Virus record (IMG/VR): IMGVR_UViG_3300011189_000050
Span: 1 to 22,684 of that record
Source of the DNA: a virus
Strand: one strand, 5' to 3'
DNA: 22,684 nucleotides
Shown here: one piece after another, positions 4,942 through 21,105 of the stretch
How the letters are laid out: each line of letters starts with the position of its first letter
How positions within the stretch are numbered: position 1 is the stretch's first letter
Notes under the pieces: generated by a model
The model's database searches: none
What the model saw: the letters and a program-made list of their open reading frames with translations, nothing else
What the model was told of the DNA's origin: nothing
Position numbers and translations under genes: made by a program

Positions 4942-5058
4942 ATGAAAATTCCAAGAGAATTAATCGATAAACAAATCGAGCCGCGCTTATTGGGTTACTC
5001 TGACTCCGAACGTGGCAAACTGCGACTTCAAGTTAGGAAAATGTATCACGCTATATAA
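4942..5058 (+). CDS. Tiny hypothetical protein
   Basis: A 38-codon ORF filling the gap between the cREC and DruA-like genes: ATG two bases after the cREC stop, TAA sharing its last base with the next ATG (TAATG at 5056-5060). The product is basic (MKIPRELIDK... QVRKMYHAI) with no known motif. Perfect end-to-end packing with both neighbours is the main reason to believe it is translated. Confidence 0.5.
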   Translation: MKIPRELIDKQIEPRLLGYSDSERGKLRLQVRKMYHAI

Positions 5059-5780
5059 TGAACTTCTTAGATTACAGTGAAGAGATACATTATCCGATTT
5101 ATTTGCAGTTGTGTACACAACCAGCAACTAACGAATTGTTCAGGTCGACGATTGACAATTTTCACTCATATGTAAATTTTGTTTCAAGCCCAACACGCAA
5201 TCTCCGTTGGTTAATCTACCAAACCGACAATAATAAGTTGTTAGGTGCTATTGGTTTATCAAGTTGTGTATTGGCTATCAAATGCCGTGATGATTATATT
5301 GGTTGGTCTAAAGATTCACGATTGAAAAACAGTAACAAGGTCGCCAACAATTCAAGATTTTGTTTAATTCCAAATGCTACTGATATGAAAAATGTTGGGA
5401 GCATGGCTTTACGTCTGTTAAGAACGGATGGAGCTACAGAATGGAAACGTCGTTATGGTGATGACCTCATTGGAATTGAAACTTATATTGAACCCATTGC
5501 AGATGGTGACTTGTATCGTAGCGGAACAGTCTACAAAGCTGATAATTGGACATACATGGGAATGACGAGTGGTAATAGTATACGAAAAGCTCCATTGAGA
5601 CTCTGGAAACAGGAAGATAGCGCAAGAGGAAAATTGGCTCGTCAGAATCCCGAAGCAGCTTGTGAGAAATACGGTTACAATAAACAGGGATATGTAGTTA
5701 AAGATTCCAAACCGAAAATGGTATTTTTTAAACCGCTCACGAAAAAATGGAGAAACGAATTGTTGAATTATGAGGATTGA
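5058..5780 (+). CDS. DruA-like / DUF4338 family protein
   Basis: A 240-residue protein with the DUF4338 layout: LRWLIY (residues ~49-54) and LLGAIGLSS; CRDDYIGWS with a following R; NNSRFCLIP; a region with W, R and YG; then IGIETYIEP and 'YKADNWTYMGMTSG' (the family's 'ETFV...YrAaNW..vG.T.G'), and a 'KMVFFKPL...WRNELL' end. DUF4338 includes DruA of the Druantia anti-phage system, whose biochemistry is unresolved; the same domain also occurs alone in phages and transposon-like settings. No DruE-type helicase is nearby, so this is a solo copy. The call is from motif order only. The fold may be GNAT-like, so a Mom-like base-modification role is an alternative. Confidence 0.55.
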   Translation: MNFLDYSEEIHYPIYLQLCTQPATNELFRSTIDNFHSYVNFVSSPTRNLRWLIYQTDNNKLLGAIGLSSCVLAIKCRDDYIGWSKDSRLKNSNKVANNSRFCLIPNATDMKNVGSMALRLLRTDGATEWKRRYGDDLIGIETYIEPIADGDLYRSGTVYKADNWTYMGMTSGNSIRKAPLRLWKQEDSARGKLARQNPEAACEKYGYNKQGYVVKDSKPKMVFFKPLTKKWRNELLNYED

Positions 5781-6768: not shown

Positions 6769-7035
6769 ATGAGAGATGTTAAAAAGTTACGCAAGAGGGT
6801 TGAAAAATGTATTTTCTGTGGTGAGAATGATAAGGTTGTATTGGATGTACACCGAATCAATGAGGGTTATAAAGGCGGAGAATACACGTTGGAGAATAGT
6901 CTAACTACGTGCAGCAATTGTCACCGAAGGGTTCACCACAGTGGACGTTATAAAATAGATGGTTGGGTTATGACCACCGGCGGTTTACGACTACACTGCT
7001 GGATTGACGAAGAGGAACAATATCTCAAGAGGTAA
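6769..7035 (+). CDS. Small HNH-type zinc-finger nuclease domain protein
   Basis: An 88-residue protein from ATG 6769 (ATG 6757 is in frame and adds MYIY from a TATATA repeat). It has a CxxC (C14, C17), 'VLDVHRINEGYKGGEYT' and CSNCHRRVHH, i.e. a second CxxC (C48, C51) with the HNH-type H-N-H/His residues. This is the compact HNH/McrA fold that cuts or nicks DNA with one metal ion and a structural zinc. Free-standing genes of this size are common in phages, as homing endonucleases or packaging-linked nucleases; no terminase is nearby. It overlaps by 11 bases with the convergent ART gene. Confidence 0.7.
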   Translation: MRDVKKLRKRVEKCIFCGENDKVVLDVHRINEGYKGGEYTLENSLTTCSNCHRRVHHSGRYKIDGWVMTTGGLRLHCWIDEEEQYLKR

Positions 7036-7618
7036 TTTGAGAAGACACTTTGGGTAACATATAGTCATCAATCGATATATCAGAAGGTTTAGTATGAACC
7101 ACCTTTTTTATAATTTCAGGGTTGTGAATTACCAACCATTCTTCTTCACCTGACTGAGATTGTAACGAAGCGTCAACACCGTGTTCTACTACAAACTTCA
7201 TAACCTCCATAGCTTGTTTACCGCCAATTTCTAAATTCACACTCATGTTCAACATTATGAATGCTGGAAGTCTACCCATACGGTCATATGATTTTTGAAT
7301 TGCATCTAAAAAGTCTCGTCGGTTCTTGGTTCCAATATATAACTTGACAAAGTTAACAGCATCTTCTATGGGAATATCAACTGCGTCCGCTAGAGTAATA
7401 TCTTTATCGACATATACAATGGATACAACATTCGAACCACGGCCATATTTCTGTGCGGTTTCATAATTTGTTGTCGTATAAATCCCAGCACCCGCTTCAT
7501 ACCTTCCTTTTTTTGGTGCTGATACTGAAGCATCCCATCTACTCCATTTTTTACCGCCGTGATATACTTTAATGTAATCCTCAACGGATTCATTTAAAAT
7601 TGATTTTAATTTTATCAT
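7025..7618 (-). CDS. Mini ADP-ribosyltransferase-like protein with capsid-targeting-like N-terminus
   Basis: A 197-residue protein. Residues 1-10 (MIKLKSILNE) match the shared tag of this operon with a potential cut after LNE. The rest has the PARP/diphtheria-type ART layout seen in phage polyvalent-protein ART domains: VYHGG (H20), GAGIYTTTNYETAQKYG (Y47, then A and Y), a beta-strand VVSIVYVD, and a late EEEWLVIHNPEII segment (E158-E160) that could supply the third H-Y-E residue. ART enzymes transfer ADP-ribose from NAD+ to proteins or nucleic acids. T4 Alt is a head-packaged ART that modifies host RNA polymerase, so a comparable early role is possible. Last gene of the operon; its ATG overlaps the cca stop (TAATG). 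Confidence 0.6.
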   Translation of the reverse strand: MIKLKSILNESVEDYIKVYHGGKKWSRWDASVSAPKKGRYEAGAGIYTTTNYETAQKYGRGSNVVSIVYVDKDITLADAVDIPIEDAVNFVKLYIGTKNRRDFLDAIQKSYDRMGRLPAFIMLNMSVNLEIGGKQAMEVMKFVVEHGVDASLQSQSGEEEWLVIHNPEIIKKVVHTKPSDISIDDYMLPKVSSQITS

Positions 7619-8880
7619 TATCGTTTCACCAATTGTAACAACTCTTCTTTGGAGACGTTTGGGTTCTCTTCAAATACATCTTGAATTTTATCCAAAATCT
7701 GTTTGAACTCAGGTCCGGATTTCATCCCCATCTTAATCAAATCTTGTCCACTCACAGGTGGTTTGATTGGAGTTGATTTCATCTGCTGTAATCGATCTCT
7801 GATTTTATCTACATCAACGGATAGGTTGAGGTCGTCAATCAACTGTAGAGTAACGTCAGCGTTCTTGCCAGCGATCCGTCTAAACTGACGAATACGCTTA
7901 TCCGACTCACCGTTATTGAAAAATGATTGTAAAGTAACCGCGTTAGCAATCTTACCAACAACATCGTTGGGGTATTTCAATCTCTTTAGAATCGCTTCGA
8001 TTTGACCCTTTGAAAGATCGTGGAATAGTATAGCAATCTTAACTCTTGGGTCAGACGCCTTTTGAATAAGATTCATCTTTTCAGTAGTAATCTCAACTTC
8101 AGGAAACATTGACTTGTTTAGACCTGAGTTTTTGATTAACTTCAAAGCACGCCCTGCGTTATCAGTCTTGAGAATCTTGTCAAACTCATCTTGAATACGT
8201 TCATTTGAGATATTCTTCAACTGATCCGCGTTACGCTTTAATGCCTTCAAAGTATTAAGAGGAATCTTCCAATTGTATTTAACAAAAAACCGAATCAGAC
8301 GTAACATACGAAGTGGATCATCAGCAAAAGTCTTGTCAGGGTCTAAAGGAGTTCTAGCAATACCTTTCTCAAGGTCATCCCTTCCTCTTCCTGTCAAGTC
8401 AACAATTTCGCCGGTTGATACGTTCTTGAATAAACTGTTAGCAGTCAAATCTCGTCGTTCCGCATCTGCTTTCAATGACGCACCTTGAACTTCGGGTTTT
8501 CTGTTTCCAGGTTCATATTTTTCGGATCGTGGAGCAACAGTTTCGATATCAATCTCAGATAAGTCTTCCCCTTTGTAATTTACTTTACGCAAGTTAAACT
8601 TGGCGGTTCCGTATGTTGGAAATACGATTGGGTTACTTCCTTCTTTGAAGTTACCCATTTGTTTAGTTGCCCAATCAGCGAATTTCAGTCCGCCTTCGGG
8701 CATATCAACAACCAAGTCAATATCCTTAATAGGTTTGCCCATCAATTCATCACGTACAGCTCCTCCGGCTATGTACACTTTGTTTTCAAACTCACTTCCT
8801 TTGATAAGGTTCTTGAGGTATTCAACTGATAGAGTTTCTTTCAACCCTTCATTTATTAAGCTTTTAAGTTTAATGTTCAT
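7618..8880 (-). CDS. cca: CCA-adding tRNA nucleotidyltransferase / poly(A) polymerase family
   Basis: A 420-residue class II nucleotidyltransferase. After an N-terminal tag (MNIKLKSLINE) come GGAVRDELMG (39-48) and the metal-binding pair in IKDIDLVVD (D53, D55); then RRDLTANSLF; DPLRMLRLIRF (RNA/nucleotide-binding part of the head domain); and an HD-like segment LFHDLSKG. All core motifs are present and the length is typical. The enzyme rebuilds the 3' CCA end of tRNAs with CTP and ATP; a poly(A) polymerase activity cannot be excluded. In a phage it could repair tRNAs damaged by host nucleases. Start overlaps the ParB-like gene by 11 bases. The tag suggests packaging in the virion. Confidence 0.85.
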   Translation of the reverse strand: MNIKLKSLINEGLKETLSVEYLKNLIKGSEFENKVYIAGGAVRDELMGKPIKDIDLVVDMPEGGLKFADWATKQMGNFKEGSNPIVFPTYGTAKFNLRKVNYKGEDLSEIDIETVAPRSEKYEPGNRKPEVQGASLKADAERRDLTANSLFKNVSTGEIVDLTGRGRDDLEKGIARTPLDPDKTFADDPLRMLRLIRFFVKYNWKIPLNTLKALKRNADQLKNISNERIQDEFDKILKTDNAGRALKLIKNSGLNKSMFPEVEITTEKMNLIQKASDPRVKIAILFHDLSKGQIEAILKRLKYPNDVVGKIANAVTLQSFFNNGESDKRIRQFRRIAGKNADVTLQLIDDLNLSVDVDKIRDRLQQMKSTPIKPPVSGQDLIKMGMKSGPEFKQILDKIQDVFEENPNVSKEELLQLVKR

Positions 8881-9312: not shown

Positions 9313-9566
9313 TACGGTGTATTTTGATTTTCCATATCTGCTAACCTACTGTAATAATCTGACATTTCATACAGATGATCCAACGCGATTTCTTCAGCAA
9401 CGTTGCGGTCATCTGTGTGTTCCATTTCAACTTCAATACCAGCTTCTAATTCAGCTTGGACGTTTGATACGTCAACATTGTGTTTGTCTGCTATGTCTTG
9501 AATAGAGTGGCTGTCGGCAATTCCTCCGTCCAGAATTTCTTCCATAATTTTTTTTATTCTGATCAT
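9312..9566 (-). CDS. Acidic hypothetical protein with tag-like N-terminus
   Basis: An 84-residue, very acidic helical protein. It starts MIRIKKIMEE, the same pattern as the tagged proteins of this operon with Glu at position 10 (the residue two before it is Met rather than Ile/Leu). It continues with a predicted helix-turn-helix-sized segment (SIQDIADKHNVDVSNVQAEL) and an acidic C-terminus. No known family. Overlaps upstream (4 bases) and downstream (TAATG), so translation is probably coupled to both. Confidence 0.6.
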   Translation of the reverse strand: MIRIKKIMEEILDGGIADSHSIQDIADKHNVDVSNVQAELEAGIEVEMEHTDDRNVAEEIALDHLYEMSDYYSRLADMENQNTP

Positions 9567-9952
9567 GAGTTTAAATAGTTTGCTATATCTTTTAAATTTT
9601 TACAAATTTTAGCGCCGTTCTTATGAACCATTTTCACTGTCGCTATTAATGATTTCAATTCATCGTCTTGGAATGTTTTGGAATCATATGTCTTTAAAAC
9701 ACAAAAAATGGTTTTCTGTGGTTTCGTGTTGCTATCTTGAACAGCTTCAGCGATGCTGTACACACCTTTCATTTGTGGGGTGATTACATACAAAACAAAG
9801 TCGCTGTTTTCTCTAGCTTCCAACTCTCTTTGGTAATCATCTTCAGTCCAATCGTCAACGACTGGATTAAAATAATCAACTTTTAACATTGGAATCAATT
9901 CCTCACGCCAAGTCGAATCGTTACAGGTTCCTCCTAAGAATACTTTTTTCAT
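9563..9952 (-). CDS. Nucleoside 2-deoxyribosyltransferase-like protein
   Basis: A 129-residue Rossmann-like protein. Signature segments: KKVFLGGTCNDSTWREELIP at residues 2-21, 'YFNPVVDDWTEDD', then 'DFVLYVITPQMKGVYSIAEA'. This order is that of the nucleoside 2-deoxyribosyltransferase-like family, in which 'FLGG', the D of the NPVVDDW segment and the Glu of SIAE line the nucleoside/sugar site. Such enzymes exchange or hydrolyse N-glycosidic bonds of (deoxy)nucleosides, and relatives (TIR/DRT superfamily) can act on NAD-like compounds. The exact substrate is unknown. It lacks the N-terminal tag of its operon neighbours. Overlaps both neighbours by 4 bases. Confidence 0.7.
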   Translation of the reverse strand: MKKVFLGGTCNDSTWREELIPMLKVDYFNPVVDDWTEDDYQRELEARENSDFVLYVITPQMKGVYSIAEAVQDSNTKPQKTIFCVLKTYDSKTFQDDELKSLIATVKMVHKNGAKICKNLKDIANYLNS

Positions 9953-10494
9953 TTTACTAATTGTGTTTCTATTTTTATATTTGGGTATTTAGATTTTAAA
10001 GTGTCGACTGATTCGATGTTTTTATGAGAGTCGTCGTAAAATATCACATACTTTATATTTGGATTTGTTCTAATTTGAGTTTCAATCCAATTCTTTTTAT
10101 CGTTCGGGTCAGAACTATTGAGAGTTATCAACTCAACACTATTTCCTATTTTTAGGCTTCTAATAAATCTCAAAATTGATTTTCTAGCGCCAACTCCCCG
10201 AGCTGTTAATATAACATTCCTATGACCGTCATTACTTCTCAAGTGTTTAATGAATATTCTCATAATGTGTCGAATGTGAGTAGGGTCTTTAACCGATTCG
10301 AAATCTGAGTAGTCCATAGTATCTCCATCCTCCTTAGAATATACAGAATATTGGCTAGGGGATAGTTTTAATCTTTTGCCGTTTTCTTTAGTTACGTATA
10401 CAAAAGATCTCGTTTTGACGAGCGTATCATCAAAATCAAAAACTCTTAAATGTTTCTCATACGATTCGTTTATTATGTTTTTTAACAATTTCAC
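9949..10494 (-). CDS. HAD-superfamily phosphatase with tag-like N-terminus
   Basis: A 181-residue HAD protein starting at GTG 10494 (GTGA overlap with the preceding stop). The tag MKLLKNIINE (Glu10) precedes HAD motif I FDFDDTLVKT (nucleophile D20, acid D22). Motif II is in VILTARG; a Lys lies in DPNDKKNW; motif IV is FYDDS. All four are present, so phosphatase activity is likely. Short HAD domains of this kind occur in RNA-repair-like and polynucleotide-phosphatase proteins of phages. A 3'- or 2'-phosphate end-processing role is an inference; a nucleotidase is equally possible. Confidence 0.75.
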   Translation of the reverse strand: MKLLKNIINESYEKHLRVFDFDDTLVKTRSFVYVTKENGKRLKLSPSQYSVYSKEDGDTMDYSDFESVKDPTHIRHIMRIFIKHLRSNDGHRNVILTARGVGARKSILRFIRSLKIGNSVELITLNSSDPNDKKNWIETQIRTNPNIKYVIFYDDSHKNIESVDTLKSKYPNIKIETQLVK

Positions 10495-11183
10495 TTTACT
10501 CTTTCTATAAATACTTCTAAATGGTCTTTTGTGAAAAACTTTAATGGGTCAGCTCTGGAATCTGCATCTGACATACTAAACTCCTTGTCTTTCCCTTGTC
10601 TTCCCATCATCTGTCTCATTTCTTTTTTGGCTGAATGTGCATTTCTAACGAAAGCGTGTAAATAAGTTTCCATGTCAGTTTTTACCCAAGAACCTTTTTC
10701 TGTTAATATTTTTTTGGGTGGAACAAACTCTTTATGGTGATGCCAAATCTCACCTGAGTATTTGAATCTCCTAGGGTGAACTTTTTTTACAAGAGCATGA
10801 TGTTTGTCGTCATGCCAAAATTCACCATCTTCATCTGGTTCTGCTCCATTTTTAAGACCGGTTTCGACAGACCATATATTATCGTTATCGTCATACTTGT
10901 TAAAGTCTGGATGTTCATCTGTTATTTTCTTTCCGTCCTTATCTTTTACGTAGACCAATCGATTTGAGGCGTCTTTTTTCTTTGGATTTCCGTAACCCCC
11001 ACCCAACAGAAATGTTTCAATGTAACCTTTGGGAAAGGCGTAAATTCCTTTCCTAGTAGGTGGGCTATGGAAACCATCGAAATTCGGATTATACCCTTTC
11101 TGTTTCACGGGAGATAGTCCGCCGAACCGAACAAACTCACCGACCGACTTTCCTTCTGTAAGTATCTGTTTTAATTTAATCAT
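10491..11183 (-). CDS. Hypothetical tagged protein, possibly ART-like
   Basis: A 230-residue protein starting MIKLKQILTE (tag, LTE at 8-10). No family is recognised with confidence. A 'FHSPPTRKGIYAFP' segment (~residues 38-51) recalls the 'GIY' strand of ADP-ribosyltransferases, and later there are His/Trp-rich pieces (FWHDDKHHALVKKVHPRRF, IWHHHKEF) that could bind metal or nucleic acid. The C-terminus is basic and helical. A second virion-packaged ART or a nuclease are both possible; this is only a hint. The coding-strand sequence AGAAGAGG sits directly before ATG 11183. Overlaps by 4 bases with both neighbours. Confidence 0.6.
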   Translation of the reverse strand: MIKLKQILTEGKSVGEFVRFGGLSPVKQKGYNPNFDGFHSPPTRKGIYAFPKGYIETFLLGGGYGNPKKKDASNRLVYVKDKDGKKITDEHPDFNKYDDNDNIWSVETGLKNGAEPDEDGEFWHDDKHHALVKKVHPRRFKYSGEIWHHHKEFVPPKKILTEKGSWVKTDMETYLHAFVRNAHSAKKEMRQMMGRQGKDKEFSMSDADSRADPLKFFTKDHLEVFIERVK

Positions 11184-11764
11184 CCTCTTCTAACCGACTT
11201 CATCATAGCCACTAAATTTTTACCTCTGTATCCCACTTGTTGATACCAATCTGAATCTACCATTTCATTAGCAGCTCGTTTGAAATCATTTTGTGCTACG
11301 GCGGCTCTCATATTTTTAAATTTTGATAATCTGGTTTTTCCCAAATTGAAACTCATATCGATAATAACTTTTCTAACGTCTTTAGGCAATTTTTGAAAAT
11401 TAGGAAACAGATCAACAGCATCTTTGTATGCTAATCTAAGAGAGAAGTTATATAATACATAAACATCTCTTTTTGATAACGGTATTTTACTAACAATCTT
11501 TTGTTTGATTTCTGGATTACGATCAAGAAACTTTCTATTAGTTTCGGAATCTAAGTTAAACCCGACTCCGATAGTTGGATGTCCATGTGTATCCATATAC
11601 ACTGTATCACGAAAACCTTCATGTCGTTCAATTTGACTATATAGTTCTACAGGATCAATCTTCTCAGCTCTATTAGCAAAAGAAGGCAACGCTGAAGCAG
11701 CAGCCATGGTTCCCATAGTTATAGCATTCTTCAATTTACCTTCTTGTAATTTTTCAGCAATCAT
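11180..11764 (-). CDS. GH24 lysozyme (muramidase), T4-lysozyme type
   Basis: A 194-residue lysozyme. The catalytic triad is E49 in ERHEGFRD, D58 in VYMDTHG and T64 in HPTIGVGFN, with spacing (9 and 6 residues) identical to T4 lysozyme E11-D20-T26. A later 'VIIDMSFNLG' helix also fits GH24. It hydrolyses the MurNAc-GlcNAc bond of peptidoglycan. The N-terminus is unusual: a short KLQEGK element (possible LQE cut) followed by a hydrophobic Ala/Met/Thr helix (residues ~13-27) ending ALPSFA, which looks like a signal peptide or signal-arrest helix. It could be the endolysin or a virion-carried lysozyme used at entry; no holin is visible nearby. Overlaps by 4 bases on both sides. Confidence 0.85.
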   Translation of the reverse strand: MIAEKLQEGKLKNAITMGTMAAASALPSFANRAEKIDPVELYSQIERHEGFRDTVYMDTHGHPTIGVGFNLDSETNRKFLDRNPEIKQKIVSKIPLSKRDVYVLYNFSLRLAYKDAVDLFPNFQKLPKDVRKVIIDMSFNLGKTRLSKFKNMRAAVAQNDFKRAANEMVDSDWYQQVGYRGKNLVAMMKSVRRG

Positions 11765-12432
11765 AATCCAGCTTTGTGTAATTGTTCTATTGTGTTTGGG
11801 GTTGACGTGTGAATGATACCCATACCACCGGCCTCAACGAACAGTTTGACATTCTTTTCCATGTCATCAATTAGTAAGTCGCCTTCTTTAGCGAATTCCC
11901 ACTTGTCTTTGCCTGAGTTTACAATGTTGAACTTCAAACCTCCAAGTCCAGCTTTTTGTAACCACGCTTGTTTACCTCTATCGGCATATCCACCCGCACC
12001 AGCGGTTAAGATTTCGATTGGGATGTTTAAAGACCTAAGATACTTTACTAGCTCTTTTCCTCCGTCTTGCCAATCCATATCAGACCAATAGTTTTCTTGG
12101 CCTTTCATTAGAACGTCCCACGCTGGAGACATAGTAAAGTTCTTTCTAAATTGGTCGCCAACAATACCATAGACATCAACTTCGCCTGAGTCTAAAATCT
12201 TGTTTCTCAAATCCGTGGCGGACTTCACGAATTCGGGACGTTCCATGTTGAGATTATCCAACTTTCGTTGTGAGATAGCCTTTCTATAATTAACCACAGA
12301 GTTCCAAATACTGTCGTTGGCTAGATACTTTCGATATTGCTTACTGAAGTCGCAAATCACTCCATCCATATCAAGAGCAATCCGCTTTACAGTGGTCGCA
12401 TTCTCCGTTAGTAAGTATTTCATCTTAATCAT
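11761..12432 (-). CDS. HAD-family 5'(3')-nucleotidase-like protein with tag-like N-terminus
   Basis: A 223-residue HAD protein, first gene of the nine-gene minus-strand operon. The tag MIKMKYLLTE (L8-T-E10) is followed by motif I, ALDMDGVICDF (D21, D23), with a long cap region. Motif II is in IEILTAGAGG, the motif III Lys is near SGKDKWEF, and motif IV is LLIDDMEKN. This resembles the NT5C 5'(3')-deoxyribonucleotidase group, which dephosphorylates (d)NMPs. The catalytic residues are intact. The role may be nucleotide-pool adjustment after host DNA breakdown. No strong promoter is visible just upstream; the A+T-rich gap 12433-12502 separates it from the divergent gene. Confidence 0.75.
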   Translation of the reverse strand: MIKMKYLLTENATTVKRIALDMDGVICDFSKQYRKYLANDSIWNSVVNYRKAISQRKLDNLNMERPEFVKSATDLRNKILDSGEVDVYGIVGDQFRKNFTMSPAWDVLMKGQENYWSDMDWQDGGKELVKYLRSLNIPIEILTAGAGGYADRGKQAWLQKAGLGGLKFNIVNSGKDKWEFAKEGDLLIDDMEKNVKLFVEAGGMGIIHTSTPNTIEQLHKAGL

Positions 12433-13243: not shown

Positions 13244-13546
13244 ATGTTAGGAAAGTGTCCAATTTGCGGCCGAGAAATGTCGGACGTCAACTCTAATCTT
13301 CACCATTTAGTTCCAAAACTGAAGGGTGGAAGACAGGATGATACAGTCCGATTACATATAATCTGCCATAATAAAATTCATTCCATTTGGTCAGAGAGTG
13401 AACTAATGTATCACTTCAATACAATTGATTCCATAATGGCAGATGTTCGTATGAAGAAGTTTTCGAAGTGGGTATCCAAGAAGGAAACTGACTTCAATGA
13501 TTCTAATAAGATGTCAAACAATCACAGACGGAGACACAGGAAATGA
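13244..13546 (+). CDS. Small HNH endonuclease domain protein
   Basis: A 100-residue protein: CPICG (C5, C8), then NLHHLVPKLKGG, then LHIICHNKIHSI, i.e. the zinc-supported HNH fold with the His-Asn-His residues in place. The C-terminus is rich in Arg/His/Lys (NHRRRHRK), suited to DNA contact. It may be a free-standing homing nuclease or a phage DNA-processing nuclease. Its stop overlaps the start of the 2H phosphoesterase gene (ATGA at 13543-13546), so the two form a short two-gene unit behind one promoter. Confidence 0.75.
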   Translation: MLGKCPICGREMSDVNSNLHHLVPKLKGGRQDDTVRLHIICHNKIHSIWSESELMYHFNTIDSIMADVRMKKFSKWVSKKETDFNDSNKMSNNHRRRHRK

Positions 13547-13947
13547 CACAATATCCATATACAACTACAGGTAAAATTCGGTATGGTCGCCACAAAGATG
13601 ATGGTGGTCATGGCTGGGTTGTGATCGATTGTCCTTCTGATATTGTATACTATTACAACAAAGTTTGTAACTGGTTGTTATTCAAAGGTAGGAGGATTAC
13701 AACTCCACTTCACGGAGCACACATTACGGTTGTTGCTGGGAAGTATGCTGACGTAGATAAAGAATTGTGGGGATACAGAGACGGTGAAGAAATTGAGTTT
13801 TCTTATGGAACAATCCAGGATAACGGCCAAAACTACTTTTGGTTGCCTGTAAAGTGTGATCAAGCCAGCGAGCTTCGTAACTACTTGGGGTTGACGCCTT
13901 TACCGAAGTTCCAATTCCACTTGACAATCGGATATTTAAATGATTGA
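13543..13947 (+). CDS. 2H phosphoesterase-like protein (Acb1-like or RNA cyclic-phosphodiesterase-like)
   Basis: A 134-residue protein with the two HxT motifs that define 2H phosphoesterases: H60-I-T62 in HGAHITVVAGK and H126-L-T128 in FHLTIGYLN. The N-terminus TGKIRYGRHKDDGGHGWVVI and a central YFWLPVKCD complete a compact single domain. 2H enzymes hydrolyse cyclic phosphates or 2'-5' links in RNA and nucleotides. Phage members include Acb1 (T4 gp57B), which degrades cyclic nucleotides of CBASS defence and has the same small size and two-HxT layout. Which substrate applies here is unknown. No 2'-5' ligase-specific features are visible. Co-transcribed with the HNH gene. Confidence 0.7.
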   Translation: MTQYPYTTTGKIRYGRHKDDGGHGWVVIDCPSDIVYYYNKVCNWLLFKGRRITTPLHGAHITVVAGKYADVDKELWGYRDGEEIEFSYGTIQDNGQNYFWLPVKCDQASELRNYLGLTPLPKFQFHLTIGYLND

Positions 13948-14126
13948 CATGAGAGGAACCACTGTCTTTGACTACTGAATCTCTCAAATGACGTATATTC
14001 ATTGTTGAAATAACAGGAACTACTTGACATTTCGGGTAGTTTCTTTATAGTTATAACCGTTGACATCGATAAGATATAGATAAATCGATTTAAACATACA
14101 GTTCAATTCAACCTAGATAAAAGATA
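13948..14126 (+). promoter_or_regulatory. 179-base intergenic leader of the NAD block
   Basis: No ORF longer than nine codons. It contains a promoter-like TTGACA (14024-14029), 16-base spacer, TATAGT (14046-14051). The -35 box lies in the loop of a modest hairpin (arms 14016-14023 and 14036-14043). A second TTGACA at 14060-14065 lacks a good -10. An identical TTGACA-N16-TATAGT precedes prs. About 75 bases of A+T-rich leader run to ATG 14127. Confidence 0.5.
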
Positions 14127-14627
14127 ATGGTTAAGAAAGAAATAGTTGAGGCTATAAATAATAGCCCGTATAAGATTTACATGGCAATCACTGGAGGTGG
14201 AACAGGTTTCATCGGTGATTTCTTAAAGTTTGGCGGAGGAAGTCAGACAATTTTGGGATATGAAGTTCCCTATCACGTTGTCGCTTTAGACCAATATATC
14301 GGTCAGAAGGTGGACAAATCCTGCAGTGAGGAAGTTGCTAATCAAATGGCAAACGTGTCTTTTTTCAAGGCGCTAAGTATTGCTCAAATAGCTAAGCTTC
14401 CCATATCTCTGAACAAACTCATTGGGGTTGGTGTAACCGCTAGTCTCACAAGAGGTGAGAACGAACGAGAGGGTCGTTGGAATGGTGCTTACATTGCTAT
14501 CAATATTGGCGCTGAAATAACCAACTATACAGTTGAGTTCGCCGACGGTACGCGAGATGAACAAGAACAGAATCTCATTGATGCAATTCTTGTTAGAGTT
14601 AGTGAGGTTATCGAAAATGGTTCTTAA
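14127..14627 (+). CDS. CinA C-terminal-domain-like protein (PncC relative, probably without the usual active site)
   Basis: A 166-residue protein of the CinA-C/PncC fold: AITGGGTGFIGDFLKFGGGS (the family's 'ESCTGG..a..l....G(S/A)S'), then GYEVPYHVVAL, CSEEVANQMA and GVGVTASLTR. PncC deamidates NMN to nicotinate mononucleotide with a Ser in ESCTGG and a Lys after the VxYS strand. Here those positions read A-I-T-G-G and Leu, so the classical Ser-Lys dyad appears to be missing. It resembles a eukaryotic/phage branch in which a CinA-like domain accompanies a nucleotidyltransferase, and the next gene is exactly that, overlapping by 11 bases. It may be a partner or substrate-binding subunit rather than an amidase. 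Confidence 0.65.
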   Translation: MVKKEIVEAINNSPYKIYMAITGGGTGFIGDFLKFGGGSQTILGYEVPYHVVALDQYIGQKVDKSCSEEVANQMANVSFFKALSIAQIAKLPISLNKLIGVGVTASLTRGENEREGRWNGAYIAINIGAEITNYTVEFADGTRDEQEQNLIDAILVRVSEVIENGS

Positions 14628-15156
14628 AACTCACAATATCGACTACGATTTGGATTTGAGTAGGGTCTGGCTTTTTCCAGGTAGTTTCAATCCACTTCAC
14701 TATGGTCACACCGATATTCTTCGTAAGGTTACTATGGAATATGGATATTCTGTATTTGAGATTAGTAAGACTAACGTTGATAAACCTACACTTGATGATT
14801 CTGAGATTGATCGTCGGTTAGAATTGTTTGGAGAATATCCAGCTATTATCACAGATGCTCCTAAGTTTGTTGATAAGGTCAATTACGGAGCCAGAAACTT
14901 TGTGATTGGTGCTGATACACTTTTTCGTATCATATGGCGTTTTCCTGTACAAGATATCATGGATTTACACGACAATGATGTAAAGTTTGTAGTGTCTCCG
15001 AGGAACGACATGATTGAAGATGGTGATATATACCGTTTTACATGTGAACTTCCAAAACAGTGTAGAATAATGATTGACAAAATGATAGTAGGTGTGTTAG
15101 ATTATAATAACACCATTAGTAGTACACAATTACGAGAACACAACAATGAAAAATAA
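14617..15156 (+). CDS. NadD-like nucleotidyltransferase (nicotinate/nicotinamide mononucleotide adenylyltransferase family)
   Basis: A 179-residue protein from ATG 14617, with GAGG ten bases upstream; the longer in-frame start lies deep inside the CinA-like gene. FPGSFNPLHYGH carries the HxGH catalytic motif (H28-Y-G30-H31), and ISSTQLR (167-173) is the second signature ISxTxxR, so the adenylyltransferase core is intact. The family transfers AMP from ATP to NMN or NaMN, giving NAD+ or NaAD; a pantetheine-phosphate or other cytidylyl-type substrate is less likely given the neighbours. It overlaps both the CinA-like gene and the NadM-Nudix gene by 11 bases, so all three are probably translated together. 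Confidence 0.75.
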   Translation: MVLKTHNIDYDLDLSRVWLFPGSFNPLHYGHTDILRKVTMEYGYSVFEISKTNVDKPTLDDSEIDRRLELFGEYPAIITDAPKFVDKVNYGARNFVIGADTLFRIIWRFPVQDIMDLHDNDVKFVVSPRNDMIEDGDIYRFTCELPKQCRIMIDKMIVGVLDYNNTISSTQLREHNNEK

Positions 15157-16033
15157 ACATACAGTTATAATCGGTCGTTTTCAACGGCCAACTATTAATC
15201 CCATACTTGATGAATTCATTGAGGATAAACTCACGGAATCTGGCGGAGTTCTAATCCTTGTAGGTTTGGCTCATATCAAAGCTACACTCAAGAATCCAAT
15301 GGATTTTGAGACACGTAAGTTCATGCTTCAAGAAGCTTATCCTGATGCTACTATCGGATACATTAAAGATGTCCGTGAGAACGAAGATTGGTCTGCCAAC
15401 CTCGATGAACAAGTAGATCGGTATGCTAAGAAGAATAAAGTAACAGTTGATGACATTGAAATTTTCGGTGGTAAAGAAACTGTACTGCCACAATACACAG
15501 GCGACAATATTATTTACGCTTTGCCGGCTGAAAGTTATGTCAATGAGAACATTAAAATTGAAGTTCCTTCGTATGCTAAACGGACATTGGAATACCGACT
15601 TGCTGTGTGTGGCATTGTCAATGAAAAATACCCAACGGCCTTTTCGACAGTTGATGTCGCTGTTTTCAAAGGTGACAAGTTGTTATTGGCACGCAAACCA
15701 AATGAGACATTGTTTCGTTTCATTGGTGGGTTCGTTGACCCACGAGAAACTTCAACACAAGCTGCTATTCGTGAGGTTATGGAAGAAGCTAATATCGACA
15801 TTGACAATGTAACATATATTGACGAATTTGTCATTGATGATTGGAGGTACCGTGCAGAAAGTGATAGTATTAAATCGACTCTGTTTACAGCTGTGTATAC
15901 AGATGGCAATCCAACTCCACAGGATGATATTGAAGAACTACGGTTATTTGATGTTGGGAAGATTACGCCTGATATGATAGTTCCTGAACATGTTCCGTTG
16001 TTTAACACATTGGTATTTTTAGGAGATATTTAA
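15146..16033 (+). CDS. NadM-Nudix bifunctional-type protein; Nudix intact, adenylyltransferase motifs lost
   Basis: A 295-residue two-domain protein. The N-terminal ~150 residues follow NadM (IIGRFQ, then ILVGLAH, then TLKNPMDFETRKFM), but where NadM has HxGH the sequence reads IIGRFQRPTINP, and no ISxTxxR follows. NMN adenylyltransferase activity is therefore doubtful. The C-terminal Nudix domain has a complete box (G195-x5-E201-x7-R209-E210-x2-E213-E214) in GGFVDPRETSTQAAIREVME. In the bifunctional family this domain hydrolyses ADP-ribose to AMP and ribose-5-phosphate. Homologous fused proteins occur in cyanobacteria, Francisella and T4-like vibriophages. Set in the NAD block, it is likely an ADP-ribose-directed hydrolase. 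Confidence 0.8.
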   Translation: MKNKHTVIIGRFQRPTINPILDEFIEDKLTESGGVLILVGLAHIKATLKNPMDFETRKFMLQEAYPDATIGYIKDVRENEDWSANLDEQVDRYAKKNKVTVDDIEIFGGKETVLPQYTGDNIIYALPAESYVNENIKIEVPSYAKRTLEYRLAVCGIVNEKYPTAFSTVDVAVFKGDKLLLARKPNETLFRFIGGFVDPRETSTQAAIREVMEEANIDIDNVTYIDEFVIDDWRYRAESDSIKSTLFTAVYTDGNPTPQDDIEELRLFDVGKITPDMIVPEHVPLFNTLVFLGDI

Positions 16034-16034
16034 T

Positions 16035-16688
16035 ATGAAGACAATAACATTAATTAGACACGGACAATCGTTGGGTAATATTAACTCAACGTATTACGTT
16101 ACAACTCCAGATTGGAAGATTCCTCTATCAGATACAGGAAGAAGTCAAGCCGAAGACGTTGGGAAGAAATTGGCTATCCATCTTCAATCCACTTCGGCGG
16201 CTTTATATTTCTCTCCGATGTATCGTGCTAAGGAAACATTTGAATTGATGAAGTCGTCAATTATTTCCAACTTGAGTTCGATTCGTGAAGAACCTCTTGT
16301 ATCTGAACAGTCGTTCGGTATGCCCAATTCATATACTAACGAATTTGGCAATATAGAGATGATGGAAGTGAGAGAATCATATGGTTCATTTTATTATTGT
16401 CCACCGGATGGTGAAAGTACATTGGATGTATTAATGCGAGGTAAACGATTCTTAGATGAAATTGAAAAACGTGGACATGACAACACAGTTGTTGTGACAC
16501 ACGGATCATTTATGAAAGTTATTTTAATGGAACTTTTAGGATGGGATGTTGAATATTTTGACCGCGTTAAACGGCCGGATAACTGCCAAATAATTCACCT
16601 TCAAGGTGAGTTTCTAGGTAGTTGGCATTGTTCAGAAGAAATGAAATTCAGAAAACGTAAAATAAAGGATCACGGAGATTACGCTTAA
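16035..16688 (+). CDS. Histidine phosphatase (phosphoglycerate-mutase-like)
   Basis: A 217-residue protein with the RHG motif in ITLIRHGQSLGN (R8, H9, G10), a second Arg in SPMYRAKET, an acid in PDGEST and the second histidine in VVVTHGSFMK (H156). The catalytic set is complete. Family members are broad phosphatases or mutases acting on sugars, nucleotides, cobalamin intermediates or proteins. AGGAG lies ~12 bases before ATG 16035, and it follows the NadM-Nudix stop by one base. Its position within the NAD block suggests a phosphorylated nucleotide or sugar intermediate as substrate, but sequence cannot tell which. The C-terminal ~20 residues are basic (KFRKRKIKDH). Confidence 0.8.
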   Translation: MKTITLIRHGQSLGNINSTYYVTTPDWKIPLSDTGRSQAEDVGKKLAIHLQSTSAALYFSPMYRAKETFELMKSSIISNLSSIREEPLVSEQSFGMPNSYTNEFGNIEMMEVRESYGSFYYCPPDGESTLDVLMRGKRFLDEIEKRGHDNTVVVTHGSFMKVILMELLGWDVEYFDRVKRPDNCQIIHLQGEFLGSWHCSEEMKFRKRKIKDHGDYA

Positions 16689-16692
16689 AATT

Positions 16693-17028
16693 ATGAAAGA
16701 AACAATTACAGTTACATATAATCAATCTGATATTCTAAAACTTGTCGAAATTGACATGCAAAATCGAGGATATTATGATATCGGTAAGTTGGCCGTTTCC
16801 GTGTTTGTTGGGCGGTATCCTGACTCTGGGACTGATAAAATCGATAGCATTTCGACAACTGCTTCTAAGGGTGAGCCGACAAGTTAAGATGTCGACGGGG
16901 AGTGGAACGTCTCCACTCACAGACTATTGAGAGAGATTCCCGACCGTTCGGAGGTCATTAAAAAACTTGAAAATACCCTTGACTTTGGGGATAAACCTAT
17001 CACTGTTATAAACATACTCCTGATATAG
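16693..17028 (+). pseudogene. Hypothetical protein interrupted by an in-frame stop
   Basis: From ATG 16693 a 64-residue protein (KETITVTYNQSDILKL..., ending SKGEPTS) stops at TAA 16885-16887. In the same frame, immediately after, 46 further sense codons read like natural protein (DVDGEWNVSTHRLLREIPDR, then EVIKKLENTLDFGDKPITV) and stop at 17026-17028. That is 15 bases before the nadV start, with AAGGA between. The spacing suggests that the original gene was ~111 codons. Either a nonsense change, a sequencing error, readthrough, or two small proteins. The conservative reading is a CDS at 16693-16887. No family is recognised. Confidence 0.5.
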
Positions 17029-17043
17029 ATAAGGAAACACAAA

Positions 17044-18498
17044 ATGAATAAAGATACACAAACAATAATTAACCCATTCGATATCATCGATGATACCGAT
17101 TCCTATAAATGTACACACCACATCGGACTCAATAAAGAGGCCGTAACTGATTACCTTGAGGCCCGTGTGGGTGCTCAATTTCCCGAAACCGTAGTTTACG
17201 GTGTAAGTGAAATGCTTGAGGGACTCGCTAACGTTCGTATCACACAAGATATGATTGAAGAAGAGGCGATCCGCTGTAAGTTTCACTTTTTTGGAAATGA
17301 GAAGCTTTTTAACCGAGAAATGTGGGAGTATATCGTCAATGAATTTGACGGAAAACTACCCGTTCGAATTTCATCGGTCGACGAGGGAACTGTTGTTCCA
17401 GTTGACAACGTAATGCTTCAGATTGAGAACCTTGGAGGCAAGTTAACTGCTGCACTTCCAGGTCACCTTGAAACTTTCTTCCTACGAGTATGGTATCCAA
17501 TGACGGTTGCCACAAAGAGTCGCGAGGTTAAGAAGATTCTTAAGAGGTATCTCGACCTAACATCTGACGATGCCAGTCTGTTGCCATTCATGCTTCACGA
17601 CTTCGGTGCTCGTGGCACAACTAACCAACAAGCTGCTGCTACAGGTGGAAGTGCTCACCTTATCAACTTCCTTGGAACTGACACGAAGGTTGCTATGACA
17701 CACATCAATCGTTTGTTCGGTGATTCTTACGAAGGTCTTGGTTACAGCATCTTCGCTACGGAACACAGTCTTATGACAAGTGAGGGTGAAGACGGTGAAC
17801 TCAAAGTTATCCGCCGATGCATGGAACGTGTTGGTATCGGAATGAAGAGTTTCGTTGCCGATAGTTACGATTACTACCGTCACGTTGCTCAATATGTTGG
17901 TCAAGACTTGAAGGAATTTATTCTTGACCAGTATAAAGAGGCTAAGACGGTCGGCATTCCTAATAAGTACGTCATTCGTCCTGACAGTTGTACTCCAGAA
18001 CACCAAACTCCAGAGGAATTGGTTGTATGGACTTACGAACAACTTGAACGTGACTATGGTGTTACTGTCAACAGTAAGGGTTATAAGGAATTGCACCCTG
18101 CTGTCGGAGTAATCTGGGGTGACGGAATCGACATTGACGGAATCGAAAAGATTCTTGAGGCGTTGACGAATGCTGGTTACGCTACCACAACTCAAGTCTT
18201 CGGAATGGGAGGTGGATTGCTCCAGAAAGTAAATCGTGATACGATGCGGTTCGCCTTCAAATGTTGTGCTCAAATGGTTGATGGTGTGTGGGGAGACGTT
18301 CAAAAGAATCCTCTTGATACTTCTAAGAAGAGTAAGGCTGGACGACAAGCTCTCACGAAGGATGACGCCGGAAACTTCATCACAGTTCGTGAAGACGAAC
18401 TCGGTGATCGTGAAAACTTCTTAAAGGTCCACTTTGAATGTGGTGAGATTCTAATCAAGCCAACGTTCGCTCAGATTCGTGAACGTTGTGCTTTATAA
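17044..18498 (+). CDS. nadV: Nicotinamide phosphoribosyltransferase (NAMPT/NadV family)
   Basis: A 484-residue full-length NAMPT. Landmarks: DTDSYKCTHH (D19-Y21, nicotinamide end), the 'LHDFGARGTTNQQAAATGGS' loop then AHLINFLGTDT, EHSLMTS (active-site His), VIRPDSCTPEH (R312, D314; family RPDSG(D/N)P, here with Cys for Gly), IWGDGID and FGMGGGLLQK. It makes NMN from nicotinamide and PRPP. In NARP2-type phage pathways this supplies NAD+ after host NADases act; the related NARP1 enzyme Namat joins nicotinamide to an ADP-ribose pyrophosphate, and homology alone cannot separate them. AAGGA precedes the ATG. Codons are richer in third-position C/G than in neighbours. The 3' end overlaps the convergent HNH gene by 6 bases. 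Confidence 0.9.
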   Translation: MNKDTQTIINPFDIIDDTDSYKCTHHIGLNKEAVTDYLEARVGAQFPETVVYGVSEMLEGLANVRITQDMIEEEAIRCKFHFFGNEKLFNREMWEYIVNEFDGKLPVRISSVDEGTVVPVDNVMLQIENLGGKLTAALPGHLETFFLRVWYPMTVATKSREVKKILKRYLDLTSDDASLLPFMLHDFGARGTTNQQAAATGGSAHLINFLGTDTKVAMTHINRLFGDSYEGLGYSIFATEHSLMTSEGEDGELKVIRRCMERVGIGMKSFVADSYDYYRHVAQYVGQDLKEFILDQYKEAKTVGIPNKYVIRPDSCTPEHQTPEELVVWTYEQLERDYGVTVNSKGYKELHPAVGVIWGDGIDIDGIEKILEALTNAGYATTTQVFGMGGGLLQKVNRDTMRFAFKCCAQMVDGVWGDVQKNPLDTSKKSKAGRQALTKDDAGNFITVREDELGDRENFLKVHFECGEILIKPTFAQIRERCAL

Positions 18499-19494
18499 CT
18501 CATTATAGAACTTCCAGCCGTCGTTTTGATAAGATGTAATGTCTTTCGGAACGACGGCTTTTTTACGTCCATCTAACCACATCCATTTTCGACCTTTGTT
18601 AGTTTTGCACAACCTCCCACGTTGCCATCCATTGTTTAGAAATTTTGATAGTTCTGTTGGGGGGATTCGTTTTTCCCGTGTTCCGTTGTGTATTGCTATT
18701 TTGGAATTTGATTTATCCTTACGATACATACCAATCACCCACTTATCGTTTAAAAACGAATTGAGTTCCGACTTTGATACCATTTTATTACTACAATTTT
18801 TATTTATCCACACCGTATCCTTAGTTGAACTGGACAGACTACCTAATACCCAACCACTCTCTATATACTGAGGAATATCATCAACCCTCACGTTCGTTTC
18901 AACCACACCGTTATTTATTCGCTTCATACCTTTCGTCATACTGGAATAAAATTCCGACGAAATTGAGGTTCCTCGTTCCCACCCTTCGGATATGTATATG
19001 TCAAGTTCTTCCGCCGTCACTCTACGGTCTTTCCCGTTCTTGGTAATATATTTTAACCCGGCAGTTCGTTTCACTGTCATCAAATGTTTTACTTCCCCTG
19101 ATTGGATACGTGGGTCGTCTTTATCAATCCTAAAACAATCACCATCTTCGCCAATAACCATCCGCGTTTGTTTAAGATATTCGGAATACTTCACACGATA
19201 CAGTTCATACAATCTGCTCTTGGATAAATTTTCACTGCGGCCGTATCCGTTGTCGTTCATCATATAATTCACGGCGCATAACAAATTCCCCTCAGACGGA
19301 AACATCCGAGTTAGTAACACATGGCATATAAAATGTTCTCTTGCTGTGAGTAATACCAAGTTTGATTCTGAGTTGTCACCTCCCAAACACCTCGGTATTA
19401 TATGATGATTTTCGTAATATTCACCTGTGAGTTTGTTCCGGTTCAATGACTTTGAATTGTCTATGATATTGTAGTATATTTTTTTATAATTCAT
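18493..19494 (-). CDS. HNH homing endonuclease with repeated DNA-binding modules
   Basis: A 333-residue protein. The N-terminal HNH nuclease is at ~27-60 (ENHHIIPRCLGGDN, then N45, then AREHFICHVLL). It is followed by at least five repeats of ~37-43 residues, each of the form (I/W)-x-N/D-G-x-(K/R)-x-V/I-x(4)-L/I-x(4)-G/K-W-x-x-G, with the conserved Trp at 172, 215, 252, 290 and 327. Such repeats are NUMOD-like modules that read target DNA in mobile HNH endonucleases. It sits between nadV and prs on the opposite strand, overlapping the nadV end by 6 bases, the pattern expected for a selfish gene inserted between conserved phage genes. No intron or intein is evident. Confidence 0.85.
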   Translation of the reverse strand: MNYKKIYYNIIDNSKSLNRNKLTGEYYENHHIIPRCLGGDNSESNLVLLTAREHFICHVLLTRMFPSEGNLLCAVNYMMNDNGYGRSENLSKSRLYELYRVKYSEYLKQTRMVIGEDGDCFRIDKDDPRIQSGEVKHLMTVKRTAGLKYITKNGKDRRVTAEELDIYISEGWERGTSISSEFYSSMTKGMKRINNGVVETNVRVDDIPQYIESGWVLGSLSSSTKDTVWINKNCSNKMVSKSELNSFLNDKWVIGMYRKDKSNSKIAIHNGTREKRIPPTELSKFLNNGWQRGRLCKTNKGRKWMWLDGRKKAVVPKDITSYQNDGWKFYNEL

Positions 19495-19526
19495 TCCATT
19501 TAATCCCTAATCCGTTTGCGTTTAAA

Positions 19527-19534
19527 TATAAATA
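19527..19534 (+). promoter_or_regulatory. Candidate T4-type late promoter (TATAAATA)
   Basis: An exact TATAAATA on the plus strand in the 174-base gap between the homing endonuclease and prs. It lies 134 bases before ATG 19669, upstream of the sigma70-like promoter. Confidence 0.3.
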
Positions 19535-19587
19535 GTAGTATCTGAGTATTTTAACTTGATATATTTTGATTTTTTTTTAAATGACCC

Positions 19588-19615
19588 TTGACATATATAA
19601 CATAAAGTGTATAGT
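19588..19615 (+). promoter_or_regulatory. Sigma70-like promoter of prs
   Basis: TTGACA (19588-19593), 16-base spacer, TATAGT (19610-19615), the same two boxes and spacing as in the leader of the NAD block at 14024-14051. About 50 bases of leader remain before ATG 19669. A T9 run (19570-19578) lies just upstream. Confidence 0.55.
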
Positions 19616-19668
19616 CATTGTTATATCAACAAATAAATAAAACGCATAGGATCACATTTCTTAAATTT

Positions 19669-20622
19669 ATGTCTGAATCACAACTAAAAATCTTCTCAGG
19701 TTCGAGCAATCCGAAACTTGTAAATGAAATTTGTCGTCAACTAAAAATGGATCAGAGTGACGTATATTTACATTCGTTTCCGTCTGGTGAACGGTATTGT
19801 CAATACAAAGAAAACATTCGTGGTGCTGACGTTTATATTGTTCAAAGTATGAATTCTCCTGTGAATGATAACTTGATGGAGTTGATGGTTATGATTGATG
19901 CCGCTCGAAGAGCAAGTGCTTGTCGTATTACTGTCGTCATTCCATATATGGGTTATATTCGACAAGATCGAAAAACAAAAAGTCGAACACCTATCTCCGG
20001 TCGAATGGTTGCTGATATGTTACAAGGTGCTGGGATTGGTCGAGTGATTGGTATGGATTTTCACTGCGCTCAGGCTCAGGGATTCTTTAGTATTCCCGTT
20101 GACCATTTGTATGCTACTCCTACCATCGTCGATTATGTGAACGGTGATGTTGATGTGGTAGTATCTCCTGATGTAGGCGGTGTAAAACGAGCTCACGCTT
20201 TTGCTGAGACGTTGGGGTCTGAGTTTGTGTTTGTTGCTAAAAAACGAATCGACGACACCACGGTCGAAACGAGTTCTGTGAGTGGTGACGTGGCCGGAAA
20301 GAATGTGTTAATCGTAGATGACATGACAGAGAGCGCAGGAACATTAATTTCCGCCGCCACTGCTTGTGTGTGTGCTGGTGCTTCTAAAGTGAGGTGTGCT
20401 ATTACACATGGCGTATTTTCTTCAGTTGCTTATCAACGACTTAAAACTCAAGACGTGATAGATGAATTTATCTTTACAGATACAACAATCAATGATATCA
20501 TAACTCAAGACACGTTTCCATTTCTTACACAGTTGAGTGTGGCTCCAACTTTCGCTCGTGCTATTGAACGAAACCATAACAATGAAAGTATCAGTGAACT
20601 TTTTACAATAGAAGGATTTTAA
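19669..20622 (+). CDS. prs: Ribose-phosphate pyrophosphokinase (PRPP synthetase family)
   Basis: A 317-residue protein from ATG 19669 (a TTG at 19618 is in frame but gives an over-long product). It follows E. coli Prs closely: PSGERYCQYKENIRG, QSMNSPVNDNLMELMVMIDA, IPYMGYIRQDRK (ATP site), MDFHCAQAQGFF (metal His132), SPDVGGVKRA, the KKR catalytic loop (191-193), VLIVDDMTESAGT (ribose-5-phosphate loop 214-225) and NNESIS near the end. It makes PRPP from ribose-5-phosphate and ATP, the co-substrate of NadV. The phosphate loop reads ESAGT where most have DT(G/A)GT, a mild change that could alter substrate choice (see the ADP-ribose kinase Adps of NARP1). Own promoter; pth2 follows after 3 bases. 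Confidence 0.9.
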   Translation: MSESQLKIFSGSSNPKLVNEICRQLKMDQSDVYLHSFPSGERYCQYKENIRGADVYIVQSMNSPVNDNLMELMVMIDAARRASACRITVVIPYMGYIRQDRKTKSRTPISGRMVADMLQGAGIGRVIGMDFHCAQAQGFFSIPVDHLYATPTIVDYVNGDVDVVVSPDVGGVKRAHAFAETLGSEFVFVAKKRIDDTTVETSSVSGDVAGKNVLIVDDMTESAGTLISAATACVCAGASKVRCAITHGVFSSVAYQRLKTQDVIDEFIFTDTTINDIITQDTFPFLTQLSVAPTFARAIERNHNNESISELFTIEGF

Positions 20623-20625
20623 ATT

Positions 20626-21105
20626 ATGAAAAAACTAACCCAACCCCAACCAGATTACAGATTATACATTCTGACTCGCACAGATTTGCCGTCACTTACT
20701 CCAGGGAAAGCCGCGGCTCACGTCGGCCACGCTTGTAATGCATTCGTGTATGAAAATCCCTCTGCTGAAAACCCTTCTGTAATGGAATGGGAGAACCAAA
20801 GCCCCCAAGGTTTTGGCACAACTATTACATTGGCTGCGTCGATAGATCAGATACAATATATAGGTGAGTCGAAGTATACACCCGGTATTATTTTTGGAAT
20901 TTCCACTGACCCTACATATCCTTATTATGTAGATAAAGAGATTGTTACGCTAATCGATTCAGATGTTCACACTTTACCTCCGGAGGAAACTGATACCGGC
21001 GGTTTTGTGTGTTTTCGAAGTGAAATCACTGCTGCTTACTATTTTGGTGACGCGGAAGATGCACATTTTAGGTCTTTGGTTTCAGACCTCTCACTACTTC
21101 CTTAG
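20626..21105 (+). CDS. Peptidyl-tRNA hydrolase, Pth2 family
   Basis: A 159-residue protein of the archaeal/eukaryal-type Pth2 fold: LYILTRTDLPSLTPGKAAAH with VGHAC (family 'vR.DL.m..GK.aAQ..Ha'), a central TTITLAAS strand (in place of 'KVVLKV'), and TLIDSDVHTLPPEET (family 'i.DAG.T.v.pGt.T'). The DAG-like step reads SDV and there is an insert of ~25 residues after the first helix, so it is a divergent member. Pth2 releases tRNA from stalled peptidyl-tRNA, recycling tRNA during heavy translation or after translation is blocked. AAGGA lies ~12 bases before the ATG; it follows prs by 3 bases and is probably co-transcribed with it. Confidence 0.7.
   Translation: MKKLTQPQPDYRLYILTRTDLPSLTPGKAAAHVGHACNAFVYENPSAENPSVMEWENQSPQGFGTTITLAASIDQIQYIGESKYTPGIIFGISTDPTYPYYVDKEIVTLIDSDVHTLPPEETDTGGFVCFRSEITAAYYFGDAEDAHFRSLVSDLSLLP

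Follow-up and report, generated by a model that had tools for sequence, protein, structure and literature searches.

The window, by which we mean the whole stretch of DNA analysed here, is a phage contig of 22,684 bases held as an IMG/VR virus record. A 76-kb contig, 3300035034_001740, is identical to it at 99.9% from base 577 onwards, so the gene arrangement in the window is not an accident of assembly; bases 1–576 lie outside the start of this longer contig. The gene set described below is found again in independent phage contigs and is therefore not a chance grouping.

The block opens on the plus strand with a gene for a CinA-like protein of 166 residues (14127–14627), followed by a predicted NadD-like NMN/NaMN adenylyltransferase of 179 residues (14617–15156; CTP_transf_like, E 1.1e-8) and a NadM-Nudix protein (15146–16033; NUDIX, 1.6e-15). 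The first gene overlaps the second and the second overlaps the third, and the gene of a branch 1 histidine phosphatase begins directly after them (16035–16688; 3.5e-27, phrog_12933). A small ORF of 64 codons without a Pfam or PHROG family (16693–16887) precedes nadV (17044–18498), and prs, encoding a ribose-phosphate pyrophosphokinase of 317 residues, occupies 19669–20622 from its ATG, with an alternative TTG start at 19618. All of these genes lie on the plus strand, as does that of a PTH2-like protein recognised by family matches (20626–21105), a conserved neighbour also seen in the comparison with a related contig, L004, for which we propose no role in the pathway. A 2H phosphoesterase gene lies upstream of the block (13543–13947, plus strand), and its counterpart is upstream in L004 too, with 62% identity.

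Family matches, together with the fold of the L004 homologue, place the Nudix, Prs, NadV, NadD-like, CinA-like and histidine phosphatase proteins exactly where an earlier, sequence-only reading had put them. That reading described the block as lying entirely on one strand, which holds for the enzymes it named but not for the block: an HNH homing endonuclease gene on the minus strand (18493–19494; phrog_655) separates nadV from prs, and is not present at that place in L004. Two plus-strand sites of the form TTGACA-N16-TATAGT, one 5' of the cinA-like gene (14024–14051) and one 5' of prs (19588–19615), match TTGACAT-N15-TATAGT perfectly, as no other place in the window does. As consensus matches they are no more than suggestive of promoters.

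Several other genes in the window are worth recording. On the minus strand between 7025 and 12432, at least four neighbouring proteins (7025–7618, 7618–8880, 10491–11183 and 11761–12432) open with a leader resembling M-x-IKLKxxLxE, which we take to be similar to the T4 capsid-targeting leader of packaged and injected proteins; three further pieces of the 76-kb contig contain no match to it. The first of these proteins may be an ADP-ribosyltransferase, its match to ART-PolyVal (E 0.0012) falling short of the cut-off. The products of 9949–10494 and 11180–11764 look alike by eye, and 9563–9952 (minus strand) encodes a protein that resembles nucleoside 2-deoxyribosyltransferases and matches TIR_2 weakly. 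At 5058–5780, on the plus strand, there is a clear match to DruA (PF14236, 1e-21), a component that takes its name from the Druantia system of defence. In PADLOC the window gave a Nudix match and a second, weak one, both of them uninformative.

The NadM-Nudix protein has its best NCBIfam matches in the models of bifunctional NadM/Nudix enzymes, below their cut-offs, and matches 2qjt and 2qjo in the PDB. NadM enzymes carry a GRFQ segment followed by (H/T)xGH and, further on, SGxxxR. The window protein reads GRFQRPTINPI, with TINP in place of HxGH, and its C-terminal SGxxxR motif is gone. The Nudix box, GGFVDPRETSTQAAIREVMEE, is intact. The NMNAT half is thus predicted to be dead, a point that the earlier identification of this protein as NadM-Nudix had overlooked, while the Nudix half, which it had recognised correctly, is likely an ADP-ribose pyrophosphatase. 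Substrate specificity of Nudix proteins is not readable from sequence, and NAD+ or NADH may also be cleaved.

To place this loss in context, we compared 84 NadM-Nudix proteins, seven encoded beside CinA–NadD genes and 77 others. In the alignment, the second catalytic His is missing in all seven and kept in 76 of the 77, which read (H/T)xxH or similar (Fisher test, 1.8e-9, a value that, like the corresponding rank tests, ignores kinship). The replacements differ: TINP in the window, CSEM in L004/L011, CYAL in L123, HSEQ or HAEQ in L010, L019 and L037, and HEAF in L093, the last taken from the raw frame because that contig carries frameshifts. The sole exception to the association is L084 (3053–4078), which has HDEQ in place of HxxH and no CinA–NadD gene visible in a contig that is a 9.6-kb fragment. 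In a characterised NMNAT, mutating either His strongly lowers activity (PMC13036487).

The decay is confined largely to one half of the protein. Among the seven, the conservation of the NMNAT half minus that of the Nudix half ranges from −0.7 to −1.5 bits per column; the figure for 70 other proteins is +0.17 ± 0.23. The score of the Nudix half is normal in six of the seven and somewhat lower in L123, and the Nudix box is intact. The repeated coupling of motif decay to CinA–NadD also speaks for the Nudix half as what these proteins retain, in keeping with ADP-ribose recycling. On a tree of NadM-Nudix proteins built with the trait columns left out, loci with CinA–NadD fall in three places, and the branches with strong support require two or more origins; by this tree, the NMNAT motif was lost at least twice. 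Asp53, Arg57, Asp75, Trp82 and Asp87 (window numbering) remain invariant in the degenerate half, which leaves room for some function in binding or structure; otherwise the half may simply have decayed.

The CinA-like protein has no Pfam or PHROG match by sequence, and comparing a profile of the CinA part directly with the CinA entries of the PDB gives an E-value of only 1.4, so that fold comparison was needed. In the predicted structure of the L004 homologue, a CinA–NadD fusion (mean pLDDT 72), residues 1–160 match CinA structures (Z 15.8 to 2a9s) and residues 203–364 match NadD/NMNAT structures (Z 11.3 to 4rpi). Judged by this homologue, the window protein has a CinA fold. In TtCinA the phosphate of NMN is bound by Gly284, Ser286 and Tyr296, and Lys301, the general base, is absolutely conserved in NMN deamidases (PMC4246079). 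Using reference residues from that paper and from PMC3855486, we observe in the phage proteins that G-x-S is kept, that the Tyr is mostly kept (and is kept in the window), and that a conserved Arg is present. The general-base Lys of YxNxxK is missing in 31 of 31 sequences in what is a remote alignment, with Leu in the window, Phe, Thr, Trp, Met or Gln elsewhere, and His in L093; the AESCTGG block is altered as well. This is a strong hint, short of proof, that the window protein is a pseudo-deamidase. The NadD-like protein retains HYGH and ISSTQLR, corresponding to the HxGH and SSTxxR motifs, and the HxxH of the NadD part is intact in all 31 sequences (30 fusions and the split pair of the window), making it a candidate NMN/NaMN adenylyltransferase.

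Scanning with the NadD part uncovered 46 loci, with 30 distinct CinA–NadD fusions in one ORF, two of them near-copies. The separate NadD-like enzyme and CinA-like partner noted in the window on first reading are thus present there as a split pair and fused in nearly all relatives. NadV is encoded within 10 kb of the fusion in 18 of the 30, in several cases directly adjoining and with a Nudix ORF ahead. When 18 CinA–NadD contigs, L157 and L186 included, were searched whole with a NadM-Nudix profile and the motifs read, six contained a degenerate protein, nine a Nudix part only, and three no match; none of them yielded a NadM whose NMNAT motif was intact. No prs was found in L123 or L093, both of which are incomplete contigs. 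NADAR-like ORFs, judged by eye, lie near CinA–NadD/NadV in L037 (5981–6487) and L093 (13733–14155).

Among named phage records, the fusion occurs in uncultured megaphages only. One of these, an uncultured phage of 485 kb (LR745208.1; fusion L134, 7953–9104), has neither NadM nor NadV detected. A match in LR756502 was set aside, as it resembles a CoaD-type enzyme and not NadD. No relative was confirmed in contigs of bacterial or archaeal genomes, where the short scan patterns make for weak evidence, and none was found on plasmids. A literature search for eukaryotic CinA–NadD fusions turned up nothing. The fusion matches no PHROG family, and Pfam recognises its nucleotidyltransferase half only. 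Surveys based on NadM would therefore miss this variant or assign its last step to the wrong protein.

NadV scores above the cut-off of NF006629, and its best structure matches are Nampt. Prs is full length and canonical (TIGR01251, 342.6 against a cut-off of 113; NF002320, 358.9 against 297), in contrast to the Adps-like proteins of PJN02 and KhF3, which are short. These assignments bear on whether the block could be NARP1, with the apparent Prs really Adps and the apparent NadV really Namat, so that NAD+ would be rebuilt in two steps. In favour of this idea, Adps is homologous to Prs and Namat to Nampt (PMC12774641). The window NadV, however, has Gly and Lys at the Namat clamp positions Phe392 and Tyr396, which are aromatic in Namat. 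With a Nampt-type NadV and a canonical Prs, the block is not NARP1; we rejected it on these residues and on the Prs type, and regard it as extremely improbable.

From the observed gene content, the loss of the motif and the way it repeatedly accompanies CinA–NadD, the folds and the family types, we infer the activities, the order of substrates and the biological purpose of the block. The Nudix half of NadM-Nudix would split ADP-ribose into AMP and ribose-5-phosphate, products that for Nudix ADPRases are known to be reusable via ATP and PRPP (PMC3680494). Prs would convert ribose-5-phosphate to PRPP, and NadV would join PRPP and nicotinamide to give NMN. Adenylylation of NMN to NAD+ would then fall to the NadD-like enzyme acting together with the CinA-like protein, and the NMNAT half of NadM-Nudix would take no further part in catalysis. 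The CinA-like part may serve as a non-deamidating NMN-site domain that holds or hands over NMN. Such a pathway would restore NAD+ after an NADase-type defence, or could just as well sustain it in the infected cell to the benefit of phage metabolism. The loop from ADP-ribose and nicotinamide to NAD+ that had been proposed for this DNA thus stands on paper, in that each step has a candidate with intact motifs (Nudix box, Prs, Nampt-type NadV, and HxGH/SSTxxR of NadD).

The coupling of NMNAT motif loss to CinA–NadD in several phage lineages explains the presence of a separate NadD-like enzyme. Because this loss goes with CinA–NadD, and because other phages with the fusion keep only a Nudix ORF, CinA–NadD is most likely the replacement for NadM as adenylylating enzyme. 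We therefore consider the block to be, with somewhat better than even probability, a pathway of NAD+ salvage in a phage in which the last step has passed from NadM to the NadD-like and CinA-like proteins. Repeated motif decay coupled to CinA–NadD makes for a clear prediction that enzyme assays can address.

A broader purpose, in which NAD+ and PRPP are kept high for phage replication and no defence is countered, is possible, if doubtful. It has been proposed for KVP40-type salvage, and under it the Nudix protein would be a housekeeping hydrolase and Prs would serve nucleotide synthesis. The occurrence of NadV in 1906 phage records, which makes it common equipment, is consistent with such a supply function, as are the lack of a Prs beside nadV in L123 and the deoxynucleotide-kinase-like and nucleotidase-like genes of the window. 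The recurrence of Nudix, NadV and an NMNAT together across distant phages argues the other way, and salvage of this type has been described as counter-defence (PMC9503650), literature that by analogy makes a role of the block against NADase defences plausible. The phage might instead consume NAD+ itself, through the ADP-ribosyltransferase candidate at 7025–7618, and recycle the products. If this enzyme is present, NAD+ salvage need not mean counter-defence. We regard recycling of this kind as very unlikely to be the purpose of the block, since the ART-PolyVal match that suggests it is weak and a modifying enzyme would probably use up little NAD+.

Two further possibilities concern the CinA-like protein. 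A deamidated route, in which it converts NMN to NaMN, the NadD-like enzyme forms NaAD, and host NadE completes NAD+, would suit the pairing of a CinA fold with a NadD fold and the retained G-x-S, Tyr and Arg of the NMN-phosphate site. Loss of the catalytic Lys in all 31 sequences makes this route unlikely, and the altered AESCTGG block also speaks against it; no NadE was found in seven contigs searched, a lack that the host could make good. The CinA-like domain could also be functional and no relic, with a chemistry of its own or a role in channelling, taking NMN or an NAD-derived immune molecule (for example a cyclic ADP-ribose) and passing a product directly to the fused NadD-like active site. 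This is rather improbable in our estimate. If true, CinA–NadD would be a dedicated counter-defence enzyme across large phages, including the 485-kb phage.

Rebuilding of NAD+ has only lately been recognised as a way in which phages respond to NADase defences, and the salvage variant that we favour, with its last step re-assigned, shares features with several known systems. KVP40 NadV/NatV salvage and NARP2 have in common with the window that they are phage-borne, that a Nampt-type NadV makes NMN, and that a protein of the NadM-Nudix family lies beside NadV. The window differs from them in including Prs and in having a NadD-like enzyme with a CinA-like partner, its NadM-Nudix being without the NMNAT catalytic motif: an NMN adenylyltransferase with intact HxGH, as in NARP2 and KVP40, is here, judged by motifs, the NadD-like protein and not NadM-Nudix. 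The Nudix domain of KVP40 NatV reportedly prefers ADP-ribose, NAD+ and NADH. The kinship to known salvage proposed at the outset accordingly stands for the KVP40 type and not for NARP1. With NARP1 the block shares its starting products, ADP-ribose and nicotinamide, and homologous enzyme families, but it would proceed in four steps through ribose-5-phosphate, PRPP and NMN.

The bacterial bifunctional enzymes Synechocystis slr0787 and Francisella NadM have the same order of two domains as the window protein, with the Nudix half intact in each, whereas the NMNAT active site is lost in the window. Similarly, the CinA/PncC NMN deamidases share their fold and phosphate-site residues with the window CinA-like protein, which has kept neither the catalytic Lys nor the AESCTGG block and is partnered with, or fused to, NadD and not COG1058. 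Judged against these systems, CinA–NadD appears to be an undescribed two-part protein, and the block a salvage variant of the NARP2/KVP40 type.
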